A stretch of DNA of 47,057 bases, from positions 1 to 47,057 of IMG/VR virus record IMGVR_UViG_3300009285_000697. The stretch is one strand, 5' to 3'. The stretch is from a virus. The first letter of the stretch is position 1; the number at the start of each line of letters is the position of its first letter. The position numbers and the translations under genes were made by a program. Shown here in pieces: positions 12,010-35,681 of this stretch. The notes beneath the pieces are model-generated. The model did no database searches and was not told the origin of the DNA. It saw only the letters and a program-made list of their open reading frames with translations.

Positions 12010-15000
12010 CTAATCTCTCCTGCCTGGGGTGAGGTTGATACTCCGGGGATTGGTATGTAATGAGGTGGGCCGCCTTTCCAGGTTGAAAATAATAGGTCTG
12101 GCGGGTAGATTAAGCTGGACTATTTTCTGTCCCAGAATGAAAGCTTTAATACGCGGCCAGAGGGTCAGACGAATCCACCTTGTTATTCCAACGGCATACC
12201 AGGGGAATTCAGAGACTTGAACGGTCTCCGCTATCCGGTGAAGTAATCTCCGCGCTTTTTGGTAAGTCTCAGATGATTGGATGGTTTCATTTACACGGTA
12301 GAACAAACCCCGTATTCTTCGCACCCCTTCGGCGAGGTCGAGGTTCTCGGCGATAATCTGCAACCGGCCACGCAGACGGCTAATCGTTTCGTCGATTTGA
12401 ACGTTCTCGGCTATATAAAAGAGCCTCCCGCGTATCCGTTGTACAAACTCTTCTATCTGGATAGACTCGGCTATATGGTAAAGGAGATTGCGGACTTTGT
12501 GGTAAGCCTCGTCTATTTGTATTGTCTCGGCGATAACTTGTAAACGGCGTCTGCCCCATAATACGATTTCGCTTGTCTGGATGGTTTCCGCAACGATTTG
12601 CAATATATGTCTGATACGAGATAAGGACTCGGAGATTTGCAGGGTTTCGTTAATCGTCTGGAGGCGGCCCCTGACCCATACAACACCCTTGGCGATTTGG
12701 AAGCCTTGAAAACCTGAGGGTTGAAACGCCACTTCGGGTTCGTCAATATAAACAGTTTCGTTCTGGACTCTACGGAAACCCATTGCCTTTTGAATCGCAT
12801 GAGCGATTTGAAGCGTCTCATTGACGATTTTAATGATAGCCCCACTGATAACACCCCTCAACGCGGTTTCGGCTATCTGGATAGTCTCGTTGATCTGATG
12901 CACGAAGTTCCGCACCATCTGGTAGGACTCCGGAGTCTGGATGGTCTCCCCGATGGTATGAAGTAATCTCTGTGCCTTTTGATAAGTCTCGGATGACTGG
13001 ATGGTATCAGCGATGTTCCTGATTAAGCCCCTTCTGGGCTGGGCGGACTCTGTGACCTCTACGAACTCATTAGAGAAATTCCTTAACCCGCGGGCTTTCT
13101 GTAAGGACTCAGAGAATTGAACAGTTTCATCCGAAGTCTTCGTAAGCCCCAAAGCCTTTTGAATTGAGTGGGCGATTTGAAGCGTCTCGCTCGAGGACTT
13201 GATAAACCCCAGAGATTTTAGATCAGATTCAATCGCCTGAATAGTCTCGTTGATGACTTTAATAATTTCCCCGATGACGGCGGCAACCAGTGCATATGTC
13301 CGGCTCTCGGTTAATTGGAGGGAGTCTGAGATAACCTGAATGAACCGGCGGGCTTTCTGCAACCCTTCGGAGAATTGAAGGGTCTCTGAAATAGTCTGTA
13401 AGAGGTTGCGGGCTTTCGGTGCAGTTTCCGTAATCTGTACGGTTTCGTTGCTTTCCTTGCGAAACTTTAACGCCTTCTGGATCGAATGAACTATCTGGAT
13501 AGTTTCGTTGACAATATAAGCCAGCGCCGCTCCGGTGAATATGTTCTTGACAACAGCTTCGGCTAGTTCAATGGTCTCGGCAACAATCTTGGTAAAACTT
13601 TTCCGGTGCCGGATCGTTTCAGTTGTCTGTTCAGTTTCGGCGATATGCTTATAGGAAGTCCGCGCCCGTTGGAGGGCTTCTTGAAGATTAACTGTTTCAT
13701 TGGAGAATTTAATCCAGGATTGAGCACCAGTCGCCGATGGTTTGAAGTAGCCGGTGAGATAGAAACCTGAGTACGCATGCTCTGATACATAATATTTGAT
13801 GATGCCTGTGGCATTGGACTTGACGTTCATGCTGAAGCCGGTGAACTCGGTATTGTCTCCTCCTACACCTTCGGCCTCATGTTCCACCAAATATCTGTTA
13901 GTGGTAGTGTCGTCGCCGTCCCTAACGCCCATTGTGAAACCTGGTACTGCAGCGTCACCATGAGTCAGAAGCATATCCACCATTCGACCATCTTGGTCTA
14001 GGAAGGCAGAAATATCTAACGACTGCCAATAAAGAGATACAGATTCGCCTATATCCTGCCACTTCTCCACGAAGTCCATTGCGGAGTCGAAGTAGCCAAA
14101 ATCTATATGCTGAGTAAATCCTGAAGTGATATATGTTGTGTAAACTTCTATGAGACTAGAAGCGTCGGCCTTAACAAACATATCTAAGCAAGAATAACCG
14201 CCCGCTTCAGGTTCGTGGACTACTATCTTTCGCTCAAGAGAAGAACCATTTGCCCTACAACCCATTGTGTTCGCGGTATCACCTTGACCATTCAAAAGAA
14301 CAATATGATGAACTAAACTCGCGCCCGCGTTTAGAGTTTCGTCAACCCAACCCCCGGCACTATCAGCAACTTCCATCGTAGATGTTTCAGTAAATGTTAC
14401 ATTTGTCCAGTATCCAGACAGGTAGAAATAGTCAGCATCGGAAACGTCAGAGTGATAACACTCGATAATTCCGTTAGCGTCAGACTGGACGAACATTCTG
14501 CAATGGGTCTGACCACCGCCCTCAGCTTCGTGAAGGGTTACAGTTCTACCAAGCGCACTCCCGTTAGCCCTGACACCTAAAGTATTTTCAACACCTGTCT
14601 CCCCATTGGACAGAACAATAGACAGCACTACATTATCCGCCCCTGCTACTGTCGAAGTATCATAATCTCCCCATACTCCATCAGACCCGCCCCATGCTGT
14701 GCTTTGCCATGAGGCCATCTTCTGAGTATAGGCAGGGTCAACACCGGTAGAGTGCTGAATTGGATATTTAGTTGAACCCTTCTCAATAAACGCTTTGGGC
14801 AGCTTGAACTTGAGTTGCCCGTTCTCTAGCTTAATATCCTCAATCCTGGCCCTGTTACCTCTCGCATCAACCAGTTCCCTTCTCGGTATATCAAGATGGT
14901 CTCGGCTGATAGACACCCAGTTGATGTCCCCGCCATTGTTCTTGTTCTTGCCCATGAAGTGAGTGTCTTTGTTGGTCTCAATAGCCTGACCACGGATGGA

Positions 15001-15558
15001 GTGAACTTCATGCTCCGGCCGTGTCCTTAGAACAATCAGGCCATCGGGCGTCTTAATCTCTGTGGGCGTCCTGACGAATATACCAGTTCCGTTATCATGC
15101 CCGTAGAGTGAGTTTCCCGCATGGTTGTCGTAGAGGTCAGCATACCAGTCCTCGTAACACTTCTCTTGGCTGTATTCCTCATCCAGCCCTAACACTCGCT
15201 CCATCGTGAGGCCGCTGGTATTGAAGTCAAGGGCTTGCCAATACTCCCCATTAACGTCAGGTGTTGGCTTGGAGTTGAGGATAACGTTCATCTCCGCCCT
15301 GCCATCAGGAGCGTCGTCATCAGGGTCATGGGCTGAGAACTCTACCGACTGTGCTCCGTAGGGTATGCGGATAGTCCGAGCCTGTAGGTCGATAGAAGGC
15401 AAGCCGGTAGGAATACCTGCAAGTTTAAGCTCAAACCATGAGCCTCGGTTGCGAAGGTATTTTAGTCTGCCTTTTAACAGGCCGAGGCCATCGCCTAGTT
15501 CGATAGCGTCTCGGCCTGTCGTTAGCCTGTAGAGGGCGTCAGAAATGCGTTCTAGCAT
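12010..15558 (-). CDS. Giant repeat-containing tail protein (1182 aa)
   Basis: Four regions can be seen. Residues 1-290 are a mixed N-terminal domain that begins with a helix and contains strands plus an Asp/Asn-rich section. Residues about 292-610 contain three diverged copies of a roughly 100-residue beta domain, each with NTLGVRANGSAL-like, LHEAEGGG-like and YFYLSGYW-like blocks. Residues about 615-1120 are some 24 tandem 20-residue repeats with core ETIQIxE and a basic segment. The C-terminal 60 residues are basic and proline-containing. The layout suggests an elongated fibre or adhesin. No catalytic motif was seen. Confidence 0.7.
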   Translation of the reverse strand: MLERISDALYRLTTGRDAIELGDGLGLLKGRLKYLRNRGSWFELKLAGIPTGLPSIDLQARTIRIPYGAQSVEFSAHDPDDDAPDGRAEMNVILNSKPTPDVNGEYWQALDFNTSGLTMERVLGLDEEYSQEKCYEDWYADLYDNHAGNSLYGHDNGTGIFVRTPTEIKTPDGLIVLRTRPEHEVHSIRGQAIETNKDTHFMGKNKNNGGDINWVSISRDHLDIPRRELVDARGNRARIEDIKLENGQLKFKLPKAFIEKGSTKYPIQHSTGVDPAYTQKMASWQSTAWGGSDGVWGDYDTSTVAGADNVVLSIVLSNGETGVENTLGVRANGSALGRTVTLHEAEGGGQTHCRMFVQSDANGIIECYHSDVSDADYFYLSGYWTNVTFTETSTMEVADSAGGWVDETLNAGASLVHHIVLLNGQGDTANTMGCRANGSSLERKIVVHEPEAGGYSCLDMFVKADASSLIEVYTTYITSGFTQHIDFGYFDSAMDFVEKWQDIGESVSLYWQSLDISAFLDQDGRMVDMLLTHGDAAVPGFTMGVRDGDDTTTNRYLVEHEAEGVGGDNTEFTGFSMNVKSNATGIIKYYVSEHAYSGFYLTGYFKPSATGAQSWIKFSNETVNLQEALQRARTSYKHIAETEQTTETIRHRKSFTKIVAETIELAEAVVKNIFTGAALAYIVNETIQIVHSIQKALKFRKESNETVQITETAPKARNLLQTISETLQFSEGLQKARRFIQVISDSLQLTESRTYALVAAVIGEIIKVINETIQAIESDLKSLGFIKSSSETLQIAHSIQKALGLTKTSDETVQFSESLQKARGLRNFSNEFVEVTESAQPRRGLIRNIADTIQSSETYQKAQRLLHTIGETIQTPESYQMVRNFVHQINETIQIAETALRGVISGAIIKIVNETLQIAHAIQKAMGFRRVQNETVYIDEPEVAFQPSGFQGFQIAKGVVWVRGRLQTINETLQISESLSRIRHILQIVAETIQTSEIVLWGRRRLQVIAETIQIDEAYHKVRNLLYHIAESIQIEEFVQRIRGRLFYIAENVQIDETISRLRGRLQIIAENLDLAEGVRRIRGLFYRVNETIQSSETYQKARRLLHRIAETVQVSEFPWYAVGITRWIRLTLWPRIKAFILGQKIVQLNLPARPIIFNLERRPTSLHTNPRSINLTPGRRD
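12200..13716 (-). repeat. Array of about 24 tandem 60-bp / 20-residue coding repeats
   Basis: Within the giant tail protein, units follow the pattern (h)I-x-ETIQI-x-E-(S/T)-x-x-x-x-R-x-L-h. Most are exactly 20 residues, for example TISETLQFSEGLQKARRFIQ. A few units have 3-17 extra residues (for example near 13520, 13265, 12850 and 12700). Near-identical units at the DNA level, such as those at about 12239 and 12959, point to recent unit duplication or exchange. Confidence 0.9.
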
Positions 15559-16119
15559 TTACACGCCCAATAGTGTGTGGTTTATGAACAGTTCCAGTGT
15601 GTCCGAGGTTGTTTTGTCGAATGTAGTGCCGAAGTCCCAATGGCACAAGGCCGCCGTGGGATTGGTAGCGGAGTCTACGATAGCACCCTCGTTGATTTTG
15701 GTGGCCGATCCCTGAGAGGCATACCAGTAGTAGTACCAGGTTACGCAGTCTGTCGTCGCCCCTGAGTTGGAGGCCTCGGTATCATTGGTCTGAGGATAGG
15801 GGTAGGTGGAGGTGGAACTCAGCCGGTTGTAGTAGCCGACACCCGCGGCGGTACACTTGGTATTTACGTCGGTATCACCCTTATCACCACCACCTGTAGT
15901 GCCATAACCTAACCGGACACCGGCGGTAGCCGAGGCGAAGTTCTTGGGGACGGTCTTTGTTGTTGCTTTGGTGGCATAAAACGTATCGCCGCCGTCGGTG
16001 ACGATATTCTTACCCACAAACTCCAACTCGATTCCCAACGGAACCCATTTGCCGTCCTTCCAGTCTCCTTTGATAAGACGGGCGACGACATTGCCTGATA
16101 GATTCATGTTTTCTTTCAT
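15559..16119 (-). CDS. Structural protein upstream of the giant tail protein
   Basis: The 186-residue product is rich in Thr, Gly, Ser and Tyr, with no helix-forming stretches of note, and contains DGGDTFYATKA (about residues 43-53) and ATAGVRLGYGTTGGG (about 63-77). Similar 'LG.GT..' beta-rich proteins are common in phage tail regions. The gene ends one base before the start of the giant tail protein gene, so the two are probably made together. The function is structural by context. Confidence 0.55.
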   Translation of the reverse strand: MKENMNLSGNVVARLIKGDWKDGKWVPLGIELEFVGKNIVTDGGDTFYATKATTKTVPKNFASATAGVRLGYGTTGGGDKGDTDVNTKCTAAGVGYYNRLSSTSTYPYPQTNDTEASNSGATTDCVTWYYYWYASQGSATKINEGAIVDSATNPTAALCHWDFGTTFDKTTSDTLELFINHTLLGV

Positions 16120-16134
16120 ATTTTACCTCTTAAT

Positions 16135-16905
16135 TTATCCAAGATTAACCAAAAACCCTTCACTTGATTTGACCTGTGGAGGCGTGTTCTCTGGAACTTT
16201 ATCCCCAGGAAGGAGCCAGCCCTCCGGAGGCGAACCACAACTTGTTCCGATGTTCGCGCATTGTCTCTGACCATAAACTGCACCGTCCCATCCGATTATT
16301 ACCGAGCCGCCTTCGGCGAATTTGGTGTGATCAAAATCCTTAGTCCCGTAGGGCGCGTAGGTAACGGTCTTGCACAACACCGAAAACTCTGTATTTTCGA
16401 CGATTACACCCAGACCACGCGCGTAACCTATCCAGTACTCAATACCTCCTTTTTCCAGCGCATATTCACCTGTATCCCTCATGTCGCAACCGTATAAACG
16501 AAGTTTGAAAGGGTACTTCAGGACGACCTTGCCCTTTCTTTTATAGGTTGACTGGTCGAGAGCATAGGCGATCATGTAACACAGCGTATTGGAAAAATAA
16601 TCACACCCAAACTTTTCGGAAATGCGCTGAAGAGGGTATAATTTAGATTTGAGTTCCGGGACTTTATGGATATTGATGATTTCTATACCGGCGTCGGCCA
16701 ACTGATTGAAGTCATCCCACCAGAAGGTTAATAATTTCTGCCCATTAACCACCTTAGTCACTTGTCCATGAGCCAGGAAGATTTTATTAATATGGCCTTT
16801 TAATCTGGCAATTTGATAATACCCGGTATTAACCGACCAGACTTCGGCGTCGAAGGGACATTCAGCACGAGACGGCCCCATTGCCAGAATTATTAACTCA
16901 CGCAT
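16135..16905 (-). CDS. GxGPS Rossmann-like protein, paralogue 1 (candidate glycosyltransferase)
   Basis: The 256-residue product opens with LIILAMGPSRAECPF followed by WSVNTGY, a nucleotide-binding-type strand-loop. Further blocks are DYFSNTLCYMIAYAL (about residues 101-115), KLRLYGCDMRDTGEYALEK (about 132-150) and EYWIGYARGLGVIVE. This is a widespread phage family of unknown role that recalls DUF115/Maf and the GT42 sialyltransferase fold (G-x-GPS, a Y-M-x-A-x-AL helix, G-x-D). It is paralogous to the protein at 23467-24171 but has about 50 extra C-terminal residues with four or more glycines and a C-x(6)-C pair. It closes the downstream edge of the sugar cassette. Transferase activity is inference. 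Confidence 0.6.
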   Translation of the reverse strand: MRELIILAMGPSRAECPFDAEVWSVNTGYYQIARLKGHINKIFLAHGQVTKVVNGQKLLTFWWDDFNQLADAGIEIINIHKVPELKSKLYPLQRISEKFGCDYFSNTLCYMIAYALDQSTYKRKGKVVLKYPFKLRLYGCDMRDTGEYALEKGGIEYWIGYARGLGVIVENTEFSVLCKTVTYAPYGTKDFDHTKFAEGGSVIIGWDGAVYGQRQCANIGTSCGSPPEGWLLPGDKVPENTPPQVKSSEGFLVNLG

Positions 16906-17154
16906 TTAAAAATACTTCCTTTTGAAGCCGTTTTCGGAGCGTTTCTTCCAGTCGTTAAACTCTTTCAAAGCCCCACCAACGTGTTCTTTGGAATAAGTCC
17001 GCCTGGGTTTCTCTGGTTTATTGCGGGCTTGTTCCCGTGTTTTATAAATCGTGCCTTCGGCCAGGTAATCCATGTAGGATTTGTCTTTTGCTTCATCAAC
17101 AGTACAAGCAATCAAGACTTCCTGACCGTCCACATTTAGTTTCTTAACAGGCAT
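16906..17154 (-). CDS. Small basic hypothetical protein in the sugar cassette
   Basis: The ATG at 17154 follows GGAGG ten bases upstream; a TTG seven codons earlier is in frame but lacks a better site. The 82-residue product starts with MPVKKLNVDGQEVLIA, has a Tyr-rich middle and a basic tail ending KKRSENGFKRKYF. The start overlaps the end of the aminotransferase gene. Its role in the cassette is unknown. Confidence 0.6.
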   Translation of the reverse strand: MPVKKLNVDGQEVLIACTVDEAKDKSYMDYLAEGTIYKTREQARNKPEKPRRTYSKEHVGGALKEFNDWKKRSENGFKRKYF

Positions 17155-18251
17155 CGTTTCATAACCTCCAACCAATTATCGCAATCGCTAAGGGTCGCTG
17201 GGGGGCGAAATATATCCGTAACGATTAATTCTTTCTCCCACATTCTTTCAGCCACGGGACAAATTGGTTCATTTATCCCAAACACAGGAAGGTGATAAAG
17301 TGGTCTAACATATGGGCCAAAATAAACACCAACGTCCTTTAATTTTTGTAAAACCTCAGTTTTATTATATTTATCAGGGTCGAGTTTAATAGCATACGTA
17401 TAAAAAACTGCTTTGCATCCAGTTTGCACAATGGGGGGAGTGACACCCTCTATCCCGTCTAAATGCCTGCTCATGTAAGATGTTAATTGAATACGGTGGT
17501 CGTTCATCACGTCTAACCGTTTGAACTGAGAGAGAGCTAAAGAAGCGGTGTACTCGGTCATTCGGTAGTTATAACCGACGATTTTTAATTCAGGGTCAGA
17601 GACCTCACCGTGGTTCCTTACGGCACGAGCTACACGGGCAATCCAGTCGTTATTGGTAATCAGCATCCCGCCTTCGCCCGTTGATACCGTCTTCGATTGA
17701 TTGAAAGAGAATATCCCACAGTCCCCTATAGTTCCGACTTTCCTACCGTGGTATTCTGCGCCTATAGCTTGGGCGCAATCCTCAATGACTAGCATCCCGT
17801 GTTTGTTGGCAAAGGCTTTTATTGAATCCATCTCGGCAGGATGCCCCATTAAATGAACCGGGATAATGACGTTGTGGTTGTCGTACATATGAGGCGAGTT
17901 ATGAACTCTCGTCTCTGTGTTCATACAGAATGTGTCGGGGTCGATGTCGCACCACTCTACTTCACCTTGCGCCTGAAGAACACACGAAGCCGAAGCCACG
18001 AAAGTAAACGGTGTGCAGGCCGCAACCTCCACGTCACAGGCTGTACAAGCGGCGTGGAGGGCTGCTGTAGCTGAGTTGAATGATACCGCCCACTTGACCT
18101 TGAAATAGTCCCTGAAAGCGGCTTCTAGTGATTGTACTCTAGGCCCGCCGTCCTGACCCGTAGGACAACCTCGGAATCCTGATAGGTTCCCACTCCTGAG
18201 AACCTCGTTTACTTCGTGGATGTCGGCATCTTCAATTATCGGGTGTTTCAT
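17136..18251 (-). CDS. DegT/DnrJ/EryC1/StrS-family PLP aminotransferase (PseC/SpsC-like)
   Basis: The 371-residue product has the features of sugar aminotransferases: SGNLSGFRG near the N-terminus, VSFNSATAALHAA (about residues 56-68) for phosphate binding, VIEDCAQAIGAEYHG with the PLP-stacking Asp (about 155-169), and FSFNQSKTVSTGEGGM, whose Lys forms the Schiff base (about 182-197). Such enzymes put an amino group on a 4-keto (or 3-keto) nucleotide sugar using glutamate; in pseudaminate synthesis the equivalent step is PseC. Length is normal for the family. It overlaps the upstream gene by 20 bases. Confidence 0.85.
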   Translation of the reverse strand: MKHPIIEDADIHEVNEVLRSGNLSGFRGCPTGQDGGPRVQSLEAAFRDYFKVKWAVSFNSATAALHAACTACDVEVAACTPFTFVASASCVLQAQGEVEWCDIDPDTFCMNTETRVHNSPHMYDNHNVIIPVHLMGHPAEMDSIKAFANKHGMLVIEDCAQAIGAEYHGRKVGTIGDCGIFSFNQSKTVSTGEGGMLITNNDWIARVARAVRNHGEVSDPELKIVGYNYRMTEYTASLALSQFKRLDVMNDHRIQLTSYMSRHLDGIEGVTPPIVQTGCKAVFYTYAIKLDPDKYNKTEVLQKLKDVGVYFGPYVRPLYHLPVFGINEPICPVAERMWEKELIVTDIFRPPATLSDCDNWLEVMKRCLLRN

Positions 18252-19005
18252 AGTCCCTTTCCATCTCCAAAACTACACGTAGAGTTTCGCGTGCTTCCTC
18301 GCCTGGGGAATAAAGTGGTGTCCCAGTATCCAAAGCCCAGATAATATCTTCAAGCATCTTGGGCAACATCATTTCTTGCGAGTGTTCAACTTCAAGGCGG
18401 AACATCGGCTCTTGGGAATCAATGTATTCTATATCCACAATCTGACCGCTCTTAAATATGATACAGTCCTTGAACGCGGCGTGGACTTCCCCGAAGTATT
18501 GTCTTAGAAGATCGACCGCGTGAGTCCCTGTATTAAGCCAGCCTCTTGAAAAAGTAAACTTGGGCTTAGTGGCGCGGCGCTGATGATTGACCTGTAGTAG
18601 AACGTTGTAATGCCTGCAGACTCTAATAATCTCATCGGCGTCTTCCAGTGTCTCAGCGATGGGTTTTTCTAACCAGATTGCTTTGACATAAGGCGCAGAC
18701 GCTACCACTAAAGCCCTGTGGGTTGAAGGCGGAGTACAGATTGAAAGGATGTCTACGGGCCAGCGTTGAACAAATGTTAATCCGTCGTCGCTAAAATAAC
18801 CTATTCTTTTAACCACGGAGATTTTACGCTGGTCCAGGTCGCATAGCGCGTCCAGTTTGATCCTCGGATTATTAAGGTAGGCGTTTAGATGGGAATCCAG
18901 GAACTCCGCGCCGATTCTACCCAGTCCAATAAGCCCCGCAGTATACTTTGAGTTCTCCCCCGAAAGACTTCTTGAAATTGGCAATGTCTCGGTTATTGCA
19001 ACCAA
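18232..19005 (-). CDS. Gfo/Idh/MocA-family NAD(P)-dependent oxidoreductase, short
   Basis: A Rossmann start, AGLIGLGRIGAEF (residues about 23-35), is followed by DALCDLD, ILSICTPPSTHR and IWLEKPIAETLEDA, the EKP lysine motif of the family. At 257 residues it is shorter than usual members (about 330-350). The best start is a TTG at 19005 preceded by GAGAGGGGG, which gives 22 residues ahead of the Rossmann strand and an 89-base overlap with the upstream gene. No ATG or GTG lies nearer. It probably oxidises or reduces a sugar intermediate. Confidence 0.75.
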   Translation of the reverse strand: MVAITETLPISRSLSGENSKYTAGLIGLGRIGAEFLDSHLNAYLNNPRIKLDALCDLDQRKISVVKRIGYFSDDGLTFVQRWPVDILSICTPPSTHRALVVASAPYVKAIWLEKPIAETLEDADEIIRVCRHYNVLLQVNHQRRATKPKFTFSRGWLNTGTHAVDLLRQYFGEVHAAFKDCIIFKSGQIVDIEYIDSQEPMFRLEVEHSQEMMLPKMLEDIIWALDTGTPLYSPGEEARETLRVVLEMERDYETPDN

Positions 19006-19648
19006 CTAAATCCCCCTCTCTTTCATCTTTAATCGCGTTCCATAAAAGATAACTTGAAGTCCCTGTGCCGTCGCTTGCCCCTATGATATAGTACGATCTC
19101 TTTTCGTCTCGAATGATAACCACTGCCGCGCCGTCGCAGGTGTAGATTGTTCCCATGTCGCAGACTTTCTTCAGGAAAGCCGAGTCGATTGGTCTTTGAA
19201 GTCCTTTACGTTCAAAGGTAAGACTGTAAAGAGCGTCCAGATACCCGAAGTCCGAACCGATGGGGAGGTCGTACTTCCGCACAAGGTTACGGGTGTCTTT
19301 ATCAAGTAGTCCCCATTCAGGTCGAACGATATACGTGTATCGAACAAGTGGTTTATATCCTTTCCACAGGAAAGGTCTGATATCTGGTAGGGTGTAGTGA
19401 TTGACCACATACTTGACATCCAGTGCCTCCATGACCTGCTGGGGATTCTTAAGGGTAAGGACGCTTTGGAACGGGGTTAAGGGTTTGGCCTCACCGAAGT
19501 CGGCAATACCGCCGATTAGATTGTCCTTTTTGTAAACCCCTTTGAGTTCGTAGCCACCGAATAAGTCAAGCCATTTGGTCGAGGAGAAGATTGTCCCTTG
19601 CTCTGATTTCCTGTTAAGTTCGTCCCACTCTACAGCAGAGATACCCAC
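18917..19648 (-). CDS. FemAB/GNAT-like acyltransferase
   Basis: The 243-residue product, with a GTG start at 19648, resembles FemAB-type and Acetyltransf_6-like proteins. It has an N-terminal WDELNRKSEQGTIFSSTKW block (substrate side) and a C-terminal half with AAVVIIRDEKRSYYIIGASDG, SYLLWNAIKDE and NFKKSFGGELKVY, the last a typical end of the GNAT-like fold (F-K-x-x-F-G-G). Such enzymes transfer acyl or aminoacyl groups to amines in cell-wall or surface sugars. Here a role in N-acylation of the aminosugar is inferred. It overlaps both neighbours. Confidence 0.65.
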   Translation of the reverse strand: MGISAVEWDELNRKSEQGTIFSSTKWLDLFGGYELKGVYKKDNLIGGIADFGEAKPLTPFQSVLTLKNPQQVMEALDVKYVVNHYTLPDIRPFLWKGYKPLVRYTYIVRPEWGLLDKDTRNLVRKYDLPIGSDFGYLDALYSLTFERKGLQRPIDSAFLKKVCDMGTIYTCDGAAVVIIRDEKRSYYIIGASDGTGTSSYLLWNAIKDEREGDLVGCNNRDIANFKKSFGGELKVYCGAYWTG

Positions 19649-20232
19649 GCTTGCTCCCTTATCTTATTCAGGTCTTCAGGAGTGTCGATTAACATTCTCT
19701 GTCCGCCACAAGCCCTCATGCGCGTTATCGAGCCGGGGAGATTGCTCATGTAGGTATGTATCCATTCCCTGTCTTCGGCTTCGTCTATCGAACGGTGGAG
19801 TTTACCTAGAAGGTTCCTTGAAGTAACGGCAACACACTCACCAGTATCCAGATTCTTAAAGGTGAAGTATTCTGAATTGGTTTCGTGGTATCCCGAAATG
19901 GCTTCCTCAATGACCTGTGGCGAGACGAACGGCGCATCGCCCCACAGTCTAATGACTGTCTCGTAACCTAGAGAAGCGTAGTAGACTCTGCCTAGAAGAT
20001 CGTCCTCGTTATTAGAGACGGAACACAGGATATGGTTCCTAACGCAGAACTCTATGATTTTAGGCGATGTGTCAGTTGTCGCTATGACGCAGGGTAATCC
20101 AGCGGCTTTCACCGTCTCGACCAGATACTTTAAGAGTTCCTTGTTATTCAAGAGGGCTAAAGCCTTACCGGGGAACCGGGAACTATTGAATCGAGCGGTG
20201 ATTACAGCGACAGTTTTACTTTGGCTTCCCAA
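19630..20232 (-). CDS. SpsF/PseF-like cytidylyltransferase (CMP-sugar synthetase)
   Basis: The 200-residue product has the N-terminal signature ITARFNSSRFPGKAL (about residues 11-25), CVIATTDTS, the SpsF-type LLGRVYYASLGYETVIRLWGD block with GDAPFVSP (about 78-104) and a final DTPEDL motif. Members activate nonulosonic acids (or related sugars) with CTP to the CMP form. A TTG start at 20232 follows AAGGAG eight bases upstream. The gene follows the NeuB-like gene with a 31-base overlap, which is the natural order of condensation and activation. Somewhat shorter than usual family members (about 230). Confidence 0.8.
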   Translation of the reverse strand: MGSQSKTVAVITARFNSSRFPGKALALLNNKELLKYLVETVKAAGLPCVIATTDTSPKIIEFCVRNHILCSVSNNEDDLLGRVYYASLGYETVIRLWGDAPFVSPQVIEEAISGYHETNSEYFTFKNLDTGECVAVTSRNLLGKLHRSIDEAEDREWIHTYMSNLPGSITRMRACGGQRMLIDTPEDLNKIREQAWVSLL

Positions 20233-20840
20233 TCTACAAGCTCCTTGAGTTCGTCTTTATCCATCGACCACGGCGCGTCTACTCCGGTCTGGTGGTCGAT
20301 ACAGAAATGTTTTTCTATTGGATTCATACCTAAAGCAATGGCAATCTTGGCGGCGTCGAGTCCTATGGTATGGTCGGAGAACCCGTAAAACCGACTCAAA
20401 TGAAGTTCCTTTAATTCGGCGGGGTATTTCGAGACACATCTTAGAATATGCTGCATAGCGTATGGTTTGATTGTTTGCCCCGGCTCTACTGAAATATAAA
20501 ATGGCCTTCTCGTGGCCAGAACACTACTTCTTAATTCCTTATCCTGGTTCCACCTTGCGGCAATCTTGAATCGCTTGACCCCTATCTTCTCGCACCATTT
20601 AACCCGTTCTGTATCGAAGACAGAAAAGAACACCTCAATCCCATTGGCTTTCCCGAAGTCGAATAGTTCCTTCGCTTGTTCAAATGATAGTTCGTTGTGT
20701 CCGGGTTCACCGTAGAGTTTCATAGAATCGTAAAGCTGGAACTTAACCAATCCCGCGCCAGCGTCCATTGACAGTAGAATCATCTTCTTGGCTAAGTCAA
20801 TGTCGCCGCAGAAGTTTTGGCCGATTTCTGATATTAGGAT
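20202..20840 (-). CDS. neuB: NeuB/PseI/SpsE-type nonulosonic acid synthase, compact, probable non-canonical start
   Basis: Family motifs are LISEIGQNFCGD (N-terminal E-x-G-x-N), GLVKFQLYDS (K-F-Q), FYGFSDHTIGLDAA and PIEKHFCID, which match the TIM-barrel synthases that condense phosphoenolpyruvate with a 6-carbon amino sugar. The only ATG (20783) would remove the conserved first motif. The motif is in frame up to ATC at 20840, eight bases after GAGAGGAG, and no ATG, GTG or TTG exists before the upstream stop, so I place the start at ATC. The 212 residues lack the usual C-terminal SAF domain (full NeuB is about 340). Confidence 0.75.
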   Translation of the reverse strand: MLISEIGQNFCGDIDLAKKMILLSMDAGAGLVKFQLYDSMKLYGEPGHNELSFEQAKELFDFGKANGIEVFFSVFDTERVKWCEKIGVKRFKIAARWNQDKELRSSVLATRRPFYISVEPGQTIKPYAMQHILRCVSKYPAELKELHLSRFYGFSDHTIGLDAAKIAIALGMNPIEKHFCIDHQTGVDAPWSMDKDELKELVDWEAKVKLSL

Positions 20841-21526
20841 AGCTTCAACTCCTCTCTCAGTTTTTCGTTCGGTCTGAGTCCGATAATCCGCTTTTCATCG
20901 TTAGGATAAAGTTTTTCACATAAGTCCCAGATATTGTATTCCTGACATGGAGGGATATTCAGACCTTCCTTTGCCTGAAGGACAAACCGCGCGGCTTCTA
21001 CGGGGTCGATGAAGTAGCGGCAACACCCTTTATTGGTAATGGTAAGCGGTTGACCTAGTTTATGTTGTCTTTGCCACAGTTCGATGACAGAACCAGAGGA
21101 ACCGTACAGATTGGGCAAGCGCACCACGCTCTGATGATGTAAGAGGAATAGATGCTCGGCAACGAGTTTAGTCGCCCCGTACAAGCCTTCAGGGGATACC
21201 GCTTTATCCGTCGAGACAAGCGTTGCCGGTAGATGAAGTCTAAGAATGTTTTCCGCCCCGATGATATTAGTTTTAATTGCCTCTGAGGGATTCTGATTGC
21301 AATGGTCAATGTGTTTGAGGGCGGCGCAGTTGATGATTCGTTCGCATCCTTCGGCAGCTCTTGATAAGGCGTCATAGTCCCTCACGTCTCCGATAACATA
21401 TTCGTTATCTGGGAGTTCTTGCTTACAGAGCCATTGCCAGTATTCATTCCTTGAATAAACCCTACACTTGGTTAAACGGGCGATTTCCTTACCTAGAGTG
21501 CCAGTACCACCGATAAGTAGAATCAT
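20834..21526 (-). CDS. PseB-like extended SDR: UDP-GlcNAc 4,6-dehydratase family
   Basis: The 230-residue product has ILLIGGTGTLGKEIA at the N-terminus, IINCAALKHIDHCNQNP (about residues 64-80), TNIIGAEN, LVSTDKAVSPEGLYGATKLVAEHL (about 102-125) and RYFIDPVEAARFV. The TDKA plus YGATK pair is the catalytic arrangement of inverting 4,6-dehydratases such as PseB/FlaA1, and the ALKH motif is also typical. It is shorter than PseB (about 330), mostly at the C-terminus. Its reaction would start the pathway from UDP-GlcNAc. ATG overlaps the end of the glmS gene. Confidence 0.75.
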   Translation of the reverse strand: MILLIGGTGTLGKEIARLTKCRVYSRNEYWQWLCKQELPDNEYVIGDVRDYDALSRAAEGCERIINCAALKHIDHCNQNPSEAIKTNIIGAENILRLHLPATLVSTDKAVSPEGLYGATKLVAEHLFLLHHQSVVRLPNLYGSSGSVIELWQRQHKLGQPLTITNKGCCRYFIDPVEAARFVLQAKEGLNIPPCQEYNIWDLCEKLYPNDEKRIIGLRPNEKLREELKLS

Positions 21527-23052
21527 TTAACAGTAACCGATTTCGCGAGATTTCTGGGACGCTCAGGAACAATGCCCCTATCTAGCGCGGTGTAATAAGC
21601 CATCATCTGCAAGGGAACGACACAGGCCATTGGGGAACTGTTAGGAACCTGTATCCACTTGTCGAAGCACTTATGATTAACGTCCGAGATGCCGATGATG
21701 TACCCCCCTCTTGTCTTCGCTTCCATCAGATTATTAATACAAGCATCGAAGTTCTCATCCTTCGGGCAAATGGCGATGATGGGTGTACCTTGTTCTATTA
21801 AAGCAAGGGAACCGTGTTTTAGTTCCCCTGCTGGCAAAGCTTCAGCGTGGATATAGGCTATTTCCTTTAGCTTCAATGCGCCCTCTAAAGCTATCGGATA
21901 ATTGATGCCTTTAGCGATTAAGTAAACGTCGTTGCCTTGTAAGACTTCCTTGCAATCCGACATAAAAGGTTCTATGTTACACGTCTTACCGGCCATCTCG
22001 TGGGCTAAATGATACAGGATACACAGGGTCGAAGTGAAACTCTTGGTAGCCGCCACCGCCAGTTCCGGCCCGCAGTTCATAGGTATCACGATGTCAGAAA
22101 GTCTGGAGAGGAGCGAATCGGGACGGTTAATGATGGAGATGACCTTCGCTTTGTGTTCCCTCGCTAACCGAACTCCGTCGATGACATCAGCCGTTTCACC
22201 GCTCTGAGAGATGGCTATTACAAGTGAATGACGGTTAATGCTCTCCGCAAAGTTCTGTAGCTCTGAGGCCAGAACAACATCGCATGAGACACCCGCGATC
22301 CGCAAGAAGTAGAACCTGCCGACGATGGCGGCGTACCTGGAGCTGCCGCAACCTATAAAGGTTATGTCCCTCGCTCTTAAAACTTCGAGTGCGGCTTCCC
22401 GTAGCTCCCTCTTTTTATCACCCTGTTCGAGAATCTCCTCAAGCATGGTATGACTTACTATAATCGCGGTATCCTTTACCGCAGCCGGATAGATAGAGAC
22501 GACCTCGTTATCGTCTAATAACCGTCCACCTAGAATGTTATCAGAGGATGCGCAACCATCTGAGACATACAAGGGATTGCCCCTGCGGGCGGCGACGATG
22601 CGGTTCTCACCCTCTTTAACCGCAAGGATGGCGAAGTTGCCCTTGAGCTTGGAAATTGTCTCCCTGACAGCACCTTCAAGCCCAAAATCACTATCTTCTA
22701 TGAGGTGGGCAATGACTTCGGAATCTGTTTCCGAGGTGTGTTTGTGCGTTTTAAGTTCTTCGTAGTTCTCGATGATGCCGTTGTGGACGATAGCAATGGT
22801 TCCACTACAATCCACAAAGGGGTGAGCGTTTTCTTTAGTGACTTTACCATGTGTCGCCCACCTTGTATGACCGATTCCCAGATTCCCGTGTAGGTCAGAC
22901 TCAATAGACCCGACGCACTTCTCTACTTTAAGAGAACCGTTCACTACAGCAATCCCCGACGAGTCATACCCCCGATATTCCAGGAGTCTAAGAGATTTCA
23001 GGAGTAAGGGTACAACGTCCCTATCTGAGATATAGCCTACAATACCGCACAA
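21523..23052 (-). CDS. glmS: Glutamine-fructose-6-phosphate aminotransferase (isomerizing)
   Basis: The TTG start at 23052 gives MCGIVGYIS, with catalytic Cys2 for glutamine hydrolysis. Further glutaminase motifs are TRWATHG, HNGIIENYEEL and SETDSEVIAHL (residues about 60-120). Two SIS domains follow: FIGCGSSRYAA, ISQSGETADVIDG and CGPELAVAATKSFT (about 225-345), then GALKLKEIAYIHAEALPAGELKHG (about 400-425) and the canonical end RPRNLAKSVTVK. At 509 residues it is about 100 shorter than bacterial GlmS but retains all motifs. It would make glucosamine-6-phosphate, the precursor of UDP-GlcNAc, and so feed the cassette. Confidence 0.92.
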   Translation of the reverse strand: MCGIVGYISDRDVVPLLLKSLRLLEYRGYDSSGIAVVNGSLKVEKCVGSIESDLHGNLGIGHTRWATHGKVTKENAHPFVDCSGTIAIVHNGIIENYEELKTHKHTSETDSEVIAHLIEDSDFGLEGAVRETISKLKGNFAILAVKEGENRIVAARRGNPLYVSDGCASSDNILGGRLLDDNEVVSIYPAAVKDTAIIVSHTMLEEILEQGDKKRELREAALEVLRARDITFIGCGSSRYAAIVGRFYFLRIAGVSCDVVLASELQNFAESINRHSLVIAISQSGETADVIDGVRLAREHKAKVISIINRPDSLLSRLSDIVIPMNCGPELAVAATKSFTSTLCILYHLAHEMAGKTCNIEPFMSDCKEVLQGNDVYLIAKGINYPIALEGALKLKEIAYIHAEALPAGELKHGSLALIEQGTPIIAICPKDENFDACINNLMEAKTRGGYIIGISDVNHKCFDKWIQVPNSSPMACVVPLQMMAYYTALDRGIVPERPRNLAKSVTVK

Positions 23053-23489
23053 AGCCAGACCTCGTTTTCCCTGGCATCGCCCTGAATCCAGAAGCCAAGT
23101 CCTTTTAGAAGACCGAGTGAGCGTTCGTTGTCCTTGATGACTGTAGTGTGGCAGTACTTGTAGCCCTGTTCCTTGAGCCAGTCCATCGCCATTCTAACGG
23201 CTTGCTTGCCTAGCCCTTTGCCCCACAAGGGAATCTCGCCAACATAATATCCTAGCTCCGGAGTCCAGCTATCAAGCCAGCCGATAGTGACCGACCCGAT
23301 TCTTCGGCCTTCGTATTCGATGATAAAATGTTTCCAGTTAGCGCGTGATTCGATCCACTTAACGTGGTCTTCCCACTCGATTAGACTGTTGGAGAAAGCC
23401 TGACTGTAAAAGCCTTTGTACAAAATCGGATTGTTTCGCCACGCTAAGAGCAGTTCCCAGTCCTCCCTACGCAGTTCTCGTAGTTTCAA
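23037..23489 (-). CDS. GNAT-family N-acetyltransferase (PseH/RimJ-like)
   Basis: The 150-residue product starts LRELRREDWELLLAWRNNP, the typical opening of PseH- and RimJ-like GNATs, and has the acetyl-CoA loop IPLWGKGLGKQAV (about residues 90-102) and NERSLGLLKGLGFWIQGDAREN near the end. In pseudaminate and legionaminate pathways such an enzyme acetylates the new amino group after the aminotransferase step. It ends inside the first codons of glmS, and its start overlaps the upstream GxGPS gene, so the genes are coupled. Confidence 0.8.
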   Translation of the reverse strand: MKLRELRREDWELLLAWRNNPILYKGFYSQAFSNSLIEWEDHVKWIESRANWKHFIIEYEGRRIGSVTIGWLDSWTPELGYYVGEIPLWGKGLGKQAVRMAMDWLKEQGYKYCHTTVIKDNERSLGLLKGLGFWIQGDARENEVWLCAVL

Positions 23490-24171
23490 GGTGTTTTAAC
23501 ATAACCTCCATTTCTTTAGCCGAGATTTTATCCATCTTCCACAATTTACGGACACCTTCGGGTGTCTTCTGAAGTTCCATGACATTCAGGGGATCGACTT
23601 TTTTCTTATTCAGTTTCCAGAATCCGTAGGGTACACCGTGGTCTGTCTTGCATAAAGCCGAGTCTGGATGAATCCAGACCTCGACACCGATGGTCTTAGC
23701 AATAGCAATGAAGTATTCTATACCCGCCCGTTCGGTGTTGTACTCATCCTGGGTGTGCATATCCACGCCGTAGAATCTCAGGCGCATTGGTTCCTTTAAT
23801 TTCAGGATACCGTTTCTGATAGTGGTGTTTTTATGAAGCGCATAAGCCACCATGTAAACGATAGTGTCGGTATAATATTCAGTGTCGAACTTCTTTTTAA
23901 GAGTGCGGAATGGGATACGGGTTTTCTTTTTGATTTCCTTAACATCGAATAAACTGATGATTTCGGCTTTCAGGTTATTGAGTTCGTCCCAGTTGAAAAC
24001 ATCGTCATCTTCCCAGTCTTTTTCCTGCCCCCTGTGACAGATAAACAATTTATCTAACCTGCCGTTTAACTGGATAACCTGCCGGTAGCCGTTATTGACG
24101 CCCCAGGTTTCGCAATCAAAGGGACACTCGATGCGGGACGGCCCCATCCCTAAAATTATAATATCCTTCAC
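23467..24171 (-). CDS. GxGPS Rossmann-like protein, paralogue 2 (candidate glycosyltransferase)
   Basis: A GTG at 24171 after AGGAG is the likely start (a TTG one codon earlier is possible). The 234-residue product has IIILGMGPSRIECPFDC and TWGVNNGY near the N-terminus, EYYTDTIVYMVAYAL (about residues 98-112), MRLRFYGVDMHTQDEYNTER (about 127-146) and EYFIAIAKTIGVEVW. It is clearly paralogous to the protein at 16135-16905 but lacks that protein's C-terminal extension and instead has a Lys-rich end. It opens the upstream edge of the sugar cassette just after the terminator. Resemblance to DUF115/Maf and GT42 proteins is by motif only. Confidence 0.6.
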   Translation of the reverse strand: MKDIIILGMGPSRIECPFDCETWGVNNGYRQVIQLNGRLDKLFICHRGQEKDWEDDDVFNWDELNNLKAEIISLFDVKEIKKKTRIPFRTLKKKFDTEYYTDTIVYMVAYALHKNTTIRNGILKLKEPMRLRFYGVDMHTQDEYNTERAGIEYFIAIAKTIGVEVWIHPDSALCKTDHGVPYGFWKLNKKKVDPLNVMELQKTPEGVRKLWKMDKISAKEMEVMLKHLETTRTA

Positions 24172-24186
24172 CAATTACTCCTCTTT

Positions 24187-24237: not shown

Positions 24238-25068
24238 TTACGGGGACAGGCGAAGGTCGATCAGGTGGAAGAAGTTGGCTGCCGGAGCGCAGGTCAGGAT
24301 GACACCGACTTCGTTCATCAGACTCCAACCGGAGTCAGTATCGAAGTTGATGCTATCGGCGGCGGTAGCTGTGCCTTTAGGAGCGCAGACGCCACCCGTA
24401 GAGCCGGTAGACCAGCCGACACGAGCGCCGGGCTGCTTGTCGATGGAGGCGCGGATACCTTCACCCGCATGGGCTAGACACGGCCCCCAGGTCTGCGCCC
24501 AGAAGAAGTAGGAGGCAGCGACAGCACACGGGGTAACACCCATCGGCATACCGGGGCCGTTGCCGTCAGACGAAACAAGGACGCCCTTGTATGGATTCTG
24601 TACCAGCTTGAACATCCCCGTAGCAGTGGCGGTGAGTTTCTTGAGGCCGGGTTGCTTCAGCCAGATACCAGTCTGCTGGTTCAAGGCGGTCGAGGAAACG
24701 AGTGCCTCATTACCATGAACCGGCACTACCTGTTGGTAAGCAACATCGGTAGAGTTACAGACCAGGAAACCATCCTTGAAGAAGTCTGCCGCAAGGACGG
24801 GAAGAGCGACGGTAGACAGGGACAGTTTGACGTAGGTGGTACCGACAGCGTAAGCCTCGTAAGCTACCTGATCGGTGGAGGTGGACGCAGGGCCTTGAGC
24901 CGCCGAGATGACCAGTTTGTTAGCGGTCAGCGCCGTTGCGCCAGCCTGTGAATAGCGGAATACCCGCCCGTCGTTGGTGAAGCCGCGAGTGCCAAGAGGC
25001 ATCCTCTGTGCGGCAGCGGTAGAGACGATCATTTCTTCGGTTAGTTGAATGCTATTAGGAAATCCCAT
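24238..25068 (-). CDS. Capsid-associated structural protein
   Basis: The 276-residue product contains RMPLGTRGFTNDGRVFRYSQAGATAL (split across residues about 22-47), a pattern I know from proteins coded just after phage capsid genes, where D-G-R-x-F-R-Y is followed by an Ala/Gly stretch. The rest is beta-rich with Ala, Gly and Thr. It could be a head decoration or head-stabilising protein. It is the last gene before the intrinsic terminator. Confidence 0.6.
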   Translation of the reverse strand: MGFPNSIQLTEEMIVSTAAAQRMPLGTRGFTNDGRVFRYSQAGATALTANKLVISAAQGPASTSTDQVAYEAYAVGTTYVKLSLSTVALPVLAADFFKDGFLVCNSTDVAYQQVVPVHGNEALVSSTALNQQTGIWLKQPGLKKLTATATGMFKLVQNPYKGVLVSSDGNGPGMPMGVTPCAVAASYFFWAQTWGPCLAHAGEGIRASIDKQPGARVGWSTGSTGGVCAPKGTATAADSINFDTDSGWSLMNEVGVILTCAPAANFFHLIDLRLSP

Positions 25069-25405: not shown

Positions 25406-26275
25406 TTAGGTTGTAGTCGCCAGAGCAGCCGCGGCATAGGTCATTGGGGCGCCGTAGGTGTCATCAATCTCGAACACACCGTAGTCGGCGACATAGACGA
25501 CTTCCCATGCACGCAGGGAGGCATCGCGTTCGCGCTCAACGCCCCAGTCTTTCGACTCTAAAAAGGCCATTGCGTTCTTAGAGAAGATAGCGCCAACCGC
25601 GTCGCTTGAACCGTCTACGACGATATTGGCATCCCAGAACATATTTACACCATTGATCTGGATACCGAAGAACCTGCGGAGCAAGTCCTCATTCTCGCCG
25701 ATGATGCCTGCGTAATAGGTCGCGCCGACAGCGGCGCCGGACTTATTAAGCTGCATCAGCGGAATAGGATGCTGGACGATGTAGACGGGGTTGGGGAACA
25801 TATTGGACTGAGCATGGGCGGCGACGCCGAAGGCCTGAGTTAGACCGAACGGGTTGCCCGAAGCACCGAGTGAAGTTCCACCGTTAAGAGCAGCGAACAG
25901 GGCGATGATGTCCTTGTCCACCTTCCGAGCCTGGGCGTCACCGGCCAGACGACCGATCATAGAGAACACATCCTCGTTAAACTGCTTTGCCAGTTTATCG
26001 GTGATGATAAATTTTCCACCGACCTCGCCAGTGGTCAGGTCGGTAGTCGAGATGGATAGGTCTTTGGAATCGGCAATATCAACACCGTCGGTAAGATTGT
26101 CAAACGAGATAGAACCAGACTTCGGAATAGTGAGTTGCTTCTGTCCGGAACCGAGGGTGAAGTGTTCGATGAGGTTCTTGCAGGGAGCCGCCGACTCTGC
26201 GGTGTAGCGGGTTTTTGCTAGAACGATATTAGAGATAGTTTCAAGATTGCCACTTGTTGCTGTTTGGATAGCCAT
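25406..26275 (-). CDS. Major capsid protein, HK97 fold
   Basis: The 289-residue product has the layout of small HK97-type capsid proteins: an N-terminal arm, a helical spine segment (about residues 95-130), a P-domain region with VYIVQHPIPLMQL, and a C-terminal A-domain with GIQINGVNMFWDANIVV and a final ERERDASLRAWEVVYVADYGVFEID block. It follows a scaffold-like gene and the portal in the canonical order. The ATG at 26275 gives MAIQTATSGNLET. No separate protease gene was seen, so the scaffold may be removed otherwise or self-cleaved. Confidence 0.8.
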   Translation of the reverse strand: MAIQTATSGNLETISNIVLAKTRYTAESAAPCKNLIEHFTLGSGQKQLTIPKSGSISFDNLTDGVDIADSKDLSISTTDLTTGEVGGKFIITDKLAKQFNEDVFSMIGRLAGDAQARKVDKDIIALFAALNGGTSLGASGNPFGLTQAFGVAAHAQSNMFPNPVYIVQHPIPLMQLNKSGAAVGATYYAGIIGENEDLLRRFFGIQINGVNMFWDANIVVDGSSDAVGAIFSKNAMAFLESKDWGVERERDASLRAWEVVYVADYGVFEIDDTYGAPMTYAAAALATTT

Positions 26276-33927: not shown

Positions 33928-34191
33928 CTAGCCCTCTAAAATAGCCTGCTTAAACTTTTCCAACAACCATAATGAGCGCTCCGGAAAGGCGTATTTCCTG
34001 GTAATAATGTGATACCCTTCGTCATCTCTATAGTCCGCGATAATAACGATGTTTTCTATCAAAGGCAAATTCTCTTTAAGCCACGCCGCGATTTCCGACT
34101 TTTCCTCCCCCATAAAAAGGTCGGAAACACACTCGACTTTCTCCACCCATTTATCAGGATTAGCCGGGGACACTTTTTTCTTGAACATCAA
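33928..34191 (-). CDS. Small hypothetical protein between terminase and portal
   Basis: The 87-residue product has a basic N-terminus (MMFKKKVSP), an alpha/beta core with LPLIENIVIIADYRDDEGYHI (about residues 42-62) and a helical end. ATG overlaps the terminase stop by four bases. The fold may be a small alpha/beta domain. Its function is not known. Confidence 0.55.
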   Translation of the reverse strand: MMFKKKVSPANPDKWVEKVECVSDLFMGEEKSEIAAWLKENLPLIENIVIIADYRDDEGYHIITRKYAFPERSLWLLEKFKQAILEG

Positions 34192-35681
34192 TAACCCCTT
34201 AACTTACCAGGTTTATACAGAGTCTGCGAGGGCATTTCCTTAGCGATCAACAAACAACCGCCGAGAGCCATGATATAGTCGTCATGCGCACCGCCCATTG
34301 GACACGGGGCTTCGCCAGGGGGCTGGATGAAACTTTTCAGTTCGGTAATAATATCCTTGTTATGAACCCTGACTTTCCGCTTCCTGACCGCCTCTTCGAG
34401 TTCCCATATCATGTCCCGGCGGGTTGAATTAGCAGAGTTACCGCCGGTGTACCAGCCGTACATCGGTTCGCCTTTAACATACCGGTTGACCCTTCGGTTG
34501 GGCGTGCCCAGGGCCGCCAGCACTTCAGAGACTTTACCGCCTACCGAAGCGTTGGACTCGAAATCGTTGAACGCCTGATTATATTCCCTGACCAGTTCGT
34601 CGAACTGTTTGGCGCACTGGTCGGCCTTGCAGAAACCGTGGGTCTCGGCCACGACCTCGTCAGTCTGGAAGTCCATAATAATTCCGGCATGGGGGTCTTC
34701 GGAGCCGTCCGACGGATCGAGAAAAGCGACGTACTTCCGGCCTATAATCGGCGGCACGTAAATCTTCACCTGTTCGCTATGGCGGGTCTCAAGAACACGG
34801 ATAACGTCCCACTCCATATCGTTAAGCGCGGCGCGGTCGAAGAAAGCTGTAGTCTCCGGAGGCGATAACGCTTGGTCTTCGGTCTCCGGATATTCTTGCT
34901 CAATCTGTAATTTGGTGTACTTCTTCTCGATGTTCTGCTTGAACCAGTCGTCGAGGGACAAACCCTCCTGTCTCACCGGCCTGAGTCTCCAACCTAAAAA
35001 GACCGCTTGCGTATTACTGCCTGTCTTTGCCGAGATATACCGTTTCCTGAAATGGGAATCCGGGGCAGACTTTTCGATGGTGGACAAATCGATCATCTGC
35101 CCCCCGGCGTCCACAGTAGGACCAATGGCCGCGAAGTTCTTTTCAGCGTAAGGATGTTTTTCCAACTCATCCCTGATAACCAGGGTCGCGGTATAGCCGG
35201 TGCCTGCGGTTTCTGTACTCGGCAGAGCTTTAATCCTGGAATTGCCGTGTTTGAAACCTATCTGAGAACGGGTGTCCGAATCTAATTCCCGCTTTATAAA
35301 ATCAGGTAAAGCATTGTAGATAAATAAACACTTGTCTATAAGCTCCCACGACCCGCCCTCTTCTTTATAGGACAATAGTAAAACTTTGGCGTAATCGTGG
35401 AACACTGCCGACCATACAGCGTAGGCGCACATCAGCCACGAGATAAATAATTGCCTCGCTTTCAGAATGACGATCTCCCTGGTGCAAGCCATCGTCTCTA
35501 TCAAATCAAAGATATACCCCGGCACCGTCGCTTTGATCTTCCGGCAGTGCGTTGAATCCTCTACGTATACATACTTGGAATAGAAATAAAAAAAACTACT
35601 CCGGCAGGCCTGCCACTCGTTCGCGTTCTTTTCTGACCAGTTCGGCAGCTGCGTTGAGGATTCTTGCGTAGTCATCTCCAT
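34188..35681 (-). CDS. terL: Large terminase subunit (ATPase and nuclease)
   Basis: The 497-residue product has the ATPase motifs VILKARQLFISW (a Walker A variant, about residues 71-82), LLLSYKEE (motif following), LVIRDELEKHPYAE (Walker B, about 168-181) and LSTIEKS (coupling motif). The RNase-H-like nuclease has FLDPSDGSEDPHAG, a central NDFESNA and a final GGAHDDYIMALGG. It packages DNA through the portal. The start is uncertain: ATG at 35681 overlaps the small-subunit gene by 86 bases, and a second ATG lies two codons later. Confidence 0.9.
   Translation of the reverse strand: MEMTTQESSTQLPNWSEKNANEWQACRSSFFYFYSKYVYVEDSTHCRKIKATVPGYIFDLIETMACTREIVILKARQLFISWLMCAYAVWSAVFHDYAKVLLLSYKEEGGSWELIDKCLFIYNALPDFIKRELDSDTRSQIGFKHGNSRIKALPSTETAGTGYTATLVIRDELEKHPYAEKNFAAIGPTVDAGGQMIDLSTIEKSAPDSHFRKRYISAKTGSNTQAVFLGWRLRPVRQEGLSLDDWFKQNIEKKYTKLQIEQEYPETEDQALSPPETTAFFDRAALNDMEWDVIRVLETRHSEQVKIYVPPIIGRKYVAFLDPSDGSEDPHAGIIMDFQTDEVVAETHGFCKADQCAKQFDELVREYNQAFNDFESNASVGGKVSEVLAALGTPNRRVNRYVKGEPMYGWYTGGNSANSTRRDMIWELEEAVRKRKVRVHNKDIITELKSFIQPPGEAPCPMGGAHDDYIMALGGCLLIAKEMPSQTLYKPGKLRGY

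Follow-up and report, generated by a model that had tools for sequence, protein, structure and literature searches.

A nonulosonate biosynthesis cassette in the virion gene block of a tailed phage and its possible role in virion glycosylation

The virus record IMGVR_UViG_3300009285_000697, a linear record of 47 kb analysed here over its full 47,057 nucleotides (the window), carries a real cassette of genes for the synthesis of a nonulosonic (sialic-like) acid. We propose that the phage builds a nonulosonate activated with cytidine monophosphate (CMP) and links this sugar to proteins of its own virion, a reading to which we give a probability of about 0.6. The enzyme set, its motifs, a missing hydrolase, the conservation and position of the genes, and the fold and sequence relation of two flanking paralogues, A and K, are computed observations. 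These paralogues, left unexplained in the preliminary description of this DNA, are the best reason to think that virion proteins are decorated. Coating of its own particle proteins with a sialic-like sugar has not yet been shown for any phage, and our literature search, incomplete in its coverage, turned up no description of a nonulosonate pathway that is encoded by a phage and linked to virion genes. Capsid glycosylation as such occurs in mycobacteriophages, for example Che8, as cited in PMC11256854. With CMP-nonulosonates as donors, Maf enzymes carry out the O-glycosylation of flagellin; the central domain of Maf resembles the sialyltransferase CstII (PMC11339370).

Synthesis of the Sugar Donor

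The cassette comprises 11 minus-strand open reading frames (ORFs), A to K, running from 24174 to 16135 between a capsid pair and tail-type genes (Table 1). They are tightly coupled, abutting or overlapping by 4-89 nt (gaps of 0 to -89 nt). The preliminary description had counted nine coupled minus-strand genes; the coupling and strand stand, and the number becomes 11 when the flanking paralogues (16135-16905 and 23467-24174) and one small ORF are included. Its placement of the cassette inside the virion gene block also holds, with the capsid gene on one side and tail-type genes on the other.

In bacteria, PseB, PseC, PseH, PseG, PseI and PseF convert uridine diphosphate N-acetylglucosamine (UDP-GlcNAc) to CMP-pseudaminate. 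PseB, PseC, PseH and PseI are the top NCBIfam models for D, I, B and E, all below the equivalog cut-offs, and GlmS (C) is the sole cassette protein above its own. The other enzymes are distant from the NCBIfam models and mostly short. The motifs are nevertheless intact: the N-terminal Cys, SQSGET and the KSVTV end in GlmS; GxTGxxG, TDK and YxxxK in the PseB-like D; the lysine of SFNQSK in the DegT-like I; the metal- and phosphoenolpyruvate (PEP)-binding motifs VKFQ, SDHTIG and EKHF in the NeuB-type E; and ARxxSxRxPGK in the cytidylyltransferase F. The earlier GlmS, PseB-, DegT/PseC-, PseH-, NeuB-, cytidylyltransferase and Gfo/Idh assignments are thus borne out by Pfam and NCBIfam profiles. The proteins called NeuB- and SpsF-like fall in PF03102 and PF02348 with their key motifs kept, F belonging to the CTP_transf_3 family and reaching only 7e-4 against the PseF model TIGR03584. 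The FemAB-like call for G (18917-19648) found no support, as neither hidden Markov model searches of Pfam and NCBIfam nor the PDB gave a family match; a single-sequence AlphaFold2 (AF2) model of G, made with no alignment, had a confidence score (pLDDT) of 35.

A SAF domain (PF08666) was not found in E, where about 37 amino acids remain after EKH; about three quarters of 100 viral NeuB ORFs likewise leave no room for it. To include its conserved N-terminus, E would have to begin with ATC at 20840, eight bases behind an AGGAG; relatives, from which this likely start was deduced, begin with ATG or TTG. This start region (20838-20852, minus strand) overlaps the PseB stop. Also missing, as had been noted before, is the hydrolase: profiles found no PseG- or NeuC-type enzyme anywhere in the contig (no TIGR03590 or PF02350 match), although the record may be a fragment. 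A calcineurin-like phosphoesterase at 4640-5440 was considered as a hidden hydrolase and rejected as a cassette member by its position, with no positive evidence for it.

Judged from these sequence comparisons, synthesis of the donor by a CMP-nonulosonate route is well supported. The preliminary claim of a CMP-activated 9-carbon sugar stands as to the route, and the identity of the sugar can be described only as pseudaminic-like.

Flanking Paralogues A and K

A and K matched nothing in Pfam, PHROGs or NCBIfam. A family profile (A3) was built from 19 members collected from viral contigs. Against the whole PDB it gave nine matches, all of them GT42 sialyltransferases (E 2.4e-6 to 0.007), and related pyrophosphokinases were not matched. 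Profile-profile comparison with HHalign related the family to CstII with a probability of 91.6% (E 1e-7); the CstII sequence was checked against chain 1ro7.

The AF2 model of K consists of one domain, with mostly high pLDDT over residues 1-185, and a low-confidence tail. In VIA-align comparisons, it superimposed best on Maf (5mu5; central domain PF01973, MAF_flag10; Z 11.3 over 151 residues), followed by an MptE-type HPPK (Z 10.8), CstII (Z 10.1 over 154 residues), a Pasteurella GT42 enzyme (9c08; Z 9.8), thiamin pyrophosphokinases (about 9) and mammalian sialyltransferases (about 7). Foldseek returned no match for the model under E 0.001, a weak result that is not used as a main argument. Since the fold is common to Maf and CstII and to MptE/HPPK and thiamin pyrophosphokinase, it does not by itself assign a function. 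The superfamily holds both CMP-nonulosonate transferases and pyrophosphokinases, and sequence and context favour the transferases. We strongly infer, from sequence and a predicted structure, that A and K are nonulosonate transferases. They are not filed as GT42 members, because the catalytic His of CstII is not clearly matched: in a low-confidence alignment, the loop at the His188 position has a conserved Glu and no His. N26, D141, Y148, E151 and E156 are among the conserved residues of K. Pfam CST-I matched neither A nor K, and one of the 19 family members only at 0.063.

Table 1. Features of the window discussed in the text, with the evidence for each
Feature	Position	Strand	Evidence
Thr/Ser-rich protein, candidate acceptor	15559..16119	-	S+T 21%; neighbour of K in both known genomes
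K: Maf/GT42-like putative nonulosonate transferase, copy 2	16135..16905	-	AF2 core residues 1-185; Maf Z 11.3, CstII Z 10.1
J: small ORF	16906..17175	-	62% identical homologue in L002
I: DegT/PseC-like aminotransferase	17136..18251	-	PF01041 (DegT) 2e-79; top NCBIfam PseC 9e-72, below cut-off
H: Gfo/Idh/MocA-type NAD(P) oxidoreductase, short form	18232..19005	-	PF01408 (N-domain) 7e-15
G: conserved protein, FemAB-like by motif only	18917..19648	-	95% identical homologue in L002
F: CMP-sugar cytidylyltransferase, SpsF/KdsB/NeuA superfamily	19630..20232	-	PF02348 (CTP_transf_3) 5e-20
E: NeuB/PseI-type synthase without SAF domain, likely ATC start	20202..20840	-	PF03102 (NeuB) 5e-30, above cut-off
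D: PseB-like UDP-GlcNAc 4,6-dehydratase, short form, 230 aa	20834..21526	-	Polysacc_synt_2 (PseB/FlaA1 family) 3e-44; TIGR03589 3e-45, below cut-off; catalytic motifs
C: GlmS, glutamine-fructose-6-phosphate transaminase, 509 aa	21523..23052	-	Pfam SIS/GATase domains; TIGR01135 6e-147, above cut-off (490.7 vs 418 bits)
B: GNAT, PseH-like N-acetyltransferase	23037..23489	-	Pfam GNAT 2e-17; top NCBIfam TIGR03585 PseH 7e-11, below cut-off
A: Maf/GT42-like putative nonulosonate transferase, copy 1	23467..24174	-	family profile: GT42 only in PDB; paralogue of K
Virion-type protein 'Deco', candidate acceptor	24238..25068	-	conserved beside capsid and transferase; S+T 16.7%
Major capsid protein	25406..26275	-	PHROG 267 6e-8; Pfam Phage_capsid_4 above cut-off; pelagiphage capsids ~29% identical
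Terminase	34188..35681		

Recurrence in Other Viruses

The capsid and terminase genes mark the contig as a tailed phage with a long minus-strand virion block, and its capsid family is common to Pelagibacter and Microcystis phages. Context in other viruses was obtained from 100 fetched loci and the window, whose ORFs were classified with locally built profiles. The A/K family alone retrieved 16 distinct viral contigs; NeuB lies within ~10 kb in 11 of them, and a cytidylyltransferase is also present in most. Because NeuB is rare (198 profile-confirmed loci among the 2.9 million contigs of that same collection), this association is far above chance. Three of the five contigs without NeuB stop just downstream. 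Another, L008, carries PseB, a cytidylyltransferase, a PseA-type amidotransferase and DegT, and in L019 the A/K-family gene stands directly behind capsid-type genes without sugar genes.

The link with virion genes is equally recurrent. In most of these contigs the A/K gene follows closely on capsid genes; it is preceded by one in the window, L003/L012, L006, L007, L008, L010, L011, L014, L015, L016 and L102, and homologues of Deco lie between the capsid and GT42-like genes in L003, L006, L007, L008 and L011. The enzyme set is conserved in the relatives L002, L003 and L011, the last of which has the whole set and a PseA-type enzyme. PseG and NeuC were found neither in the window nor in the relatives L005, L008 and L011. 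A NeuC-type hydrolase is present in L004, L018, L020 and L021, indicating that the type of sugar differs between phages.

In a close relative, contig IMGVR_UViG_3300009285_000812 (L002), the same cassette occurs. Identity to the window is 89-96% for A, C, D, F and G and only 62-74% for B, E, H, I, J and K. Such a mosaic within one operon suggests that single biosynthesis genes have been exchanged. In this contig, four virion-type genes are inserted between J and K. Despite the insertion, K still adjoins the homologue of 15559-16119 (L005), and A still adjoins that of 24238-25068. Since each transferase copy keeps its own Ser/Thr-rich neighbour, these two proteins are, by position, the foremost acceptor candidates; a comparable content of Ser and Thr is also seen in the window's tail-type proteins.

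A chimera with a host contig was also considered as the origin of the cassette. It is unlikely because the order of capsid, Deco, transferase and sugar genes recurs in independent assemblies, including a contig from a metagenome-assembled genome (MAG).

Several other loci and searches deserve mention. L102 (1-6851), binned with a Bathyarchaeota MAG, has capsid, Deco, transferase, cytidylyltransferase, PseB and NeuB in the same order and is possibly an archaeal virus or a mis-binned contig. In a DNA search of 201 genomes of that MAG's class, almost all matches fell in the GlmS gene and one in DegT, so that they are uninformative on the host. BLAST of the cassette DNA against phage records gave no match, and a scan of bacterial genomes with the A1 profile matched one contig. 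A/K-family domains are fused to a GT2 glycosyltransferase in L016 (9974-11596) and to a LicD-like domain, below the Pfam cut-off, in L007 (9992-11056). Behind the capsid genes of L010 (11359-16390), NeuB and a cytidylyltransferase-methyltransferase fusion are flanked by cupin and radical SAM proteins, possibly for further tailoring of the sugar. Microcystis phage PP496355.1 (L103 7911-8714), whose genome lacks NeuB, has an A/K-family homologue beside the terminase, annotated as a type 11 methyltransferase; this phage is a possible laboratory model. Within the window, a 1182-aa fibre-like protein (12010-15558, minus strand) contains many degenerate repeats around 'ETIQ/ETLQ'.

Proposed Pathway and Alternative Explanations

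In the proposed pathway, GlmS would raise glucosamine-6-phosphate and hence UDP-GlcNAc, which the PseB-, PseC- and PseH-like enzymes would dehydrate, aminate and acetylate in turn. The sugar could then be freed by a hydrolase of the host, by an unrecognised protein, or by slow unspecific activity. The SAF-less NeuB/PseI would join the freed sugar to PEP, and the cytidylyltransferase would activate the product with CMP. Tailoring of the sugar may fall to the Gfo/Idh protein and perhaps to G. Finally, the small, single-domain A and K would transfer it, in the cytoplasm, onto Ser/Thr residues of proteins from the capsid block, in the way that Maf glycosylates flagellin. The transfer activity, the acceptor and the exact sugar are what we infer from the observations above.

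Several points weigh against this proposal. The contig has no PseG or NeuC hydrolase. The fold of K is also that of MptE/HPPK and thiamin pyrophosphokinase, and His188 of CstII has no clear counterpart in the low-confidence alignment. Because the A/K family also occurs in L019 and Microcystis phage PP496355, which lack NeuB, it may include members that draw on host donors or have another activity. The modification of virion proteins is a prediction from gene content and position.

A rather unlikely alternative, compatible with virion decoration, is that the donor pathway is incomplete or degenerate and only supplements a host pathway, its product being the host's own sugar. The missing hydrolase and the short PseB, SAF-less NeuB and short Gfo would fit. 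However, the motifs are intact, the set is conserved in L002, L003 and L011, and most viral NeuBs are equally without room for SAF. In B. subtilis, moreover, loss of SpsG strongly reduced but did not abolish legionaminic acid on the spore surface (PMC7439481).

The preliminary description had left virion decoration and remodelling of the host surface side by side. The link with the virion stands, and decoration is favoured because the flanking A and K, putative transferases of a Maf/GT42-like type, are linked with capsid genes. Remodelling is the chief rival to virion decoration but an unlikely one: CMP-nonulosonate would feed host capsule, lipopolysaccharide (LPS) or flagellin, blocking superinfection or altering adsorption. 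The enzyme set is typical of surface glycans and L016 has the GT2 fusion; prophage EpaA/EpaB convert capsular pseudaminic acid in A. baumannii (PMC12053666), and LPS or polysaccharide clusters of jumbo cyanophages have a proposed role of this kind (PMC7824862). On the other hand, we noticed neither a flippase nor a polymerase nor a membrane transferase among the genes of the cassette, which sits in the virion block with A/K genes that track the capsid gene across lineages, and a CMP-sugar made late leaves little time for a change of the surface.

That A and K are nucleotide-dependent enzymes like MptE or thiamin pyrophosphokinase, with the sugar genes serving something else, would suit the HPPK and thiamin pyrophosphokinase Z-scores and the unconserved CstII His, but is quite improbable in view of a sequence profile that picks GT42 only, the co-occurrence with NeuB and CMP-sugar synthetases, and the fusions to GT2 and LicD-type domains.

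Beyond the window, virion decoration can be extended to a wider proposal that stands at about even odds: a phage-borne, largely self-sufficient system of virion nonulosonate O-glycosylation, operated by a new single-domain Maf/GT42-like transferase family and found across varied tailed viruses, perhaps including some that infect Bathyarchaeia, its sugars ranging from pseudaminic-like via acetamidino forms to Neu5Ac/legionaminic-like. Many uncultured phages share the conserved module. If the proposal is true, sialic-like sugars on the particles would explain why phages carry so expensive a pathway. Such a coat could protect capsids against other organisms or adjust adsorption, and A and K would represent a compact new class of enzymes for the O-sialylation of proteins.

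Comparison with Known Systems

The cassette is like the Campylobacter and Helicobacter PseBCHGIF pathway in the top models for D, I, B and E and in the PseA-type amidotransferase added in its relatives. It differs in being phage-borne, in its shorter enzymes, in lacking PseG, in a cytidylyltransferase that is not PseF-like above the cut-off, and in the addition of GlmS and Gfo/Idh. It shares with the legionaminic pathway of B. subtilis (SpsM-C-D-G-E-F) a UDP-linked route from a dehydratase to a NeuB-type synthase and a small cytidylyltransferase, and the product of that pathway also goes on an outer coat (PMC7439481). In contrast to sps, the phage cassette has no SpsG hydrolase, its dehydratase scores best as the PseB (inverting) type, and it belongs to a phage and not to a spore.

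Among transferases, K has the fold of the Maf central domain (PF01973; 5mu5), with a CMP-nonulosonate donor implied by its neighbours. Unlike Maf, A and K are single domains without the N- and C-terminal Maf domains, and their acceptor is likely a virion protein. GT42 (CstI/CstII) is the only PDB family matched by the A/K profile and has a similar fold (Z about 10), but A and K are distant in sequence, His188 is not matched, and the window members have no Pfam CST-I match. The mycobacteriophages Che8 and Rita are not known to have a nonulosonate pathway, and their gene layout is unrelated to the cassette. The likeness lies in their glycosylated capsids, which phage-encoded transferases are thought to modify (PMC11256854).

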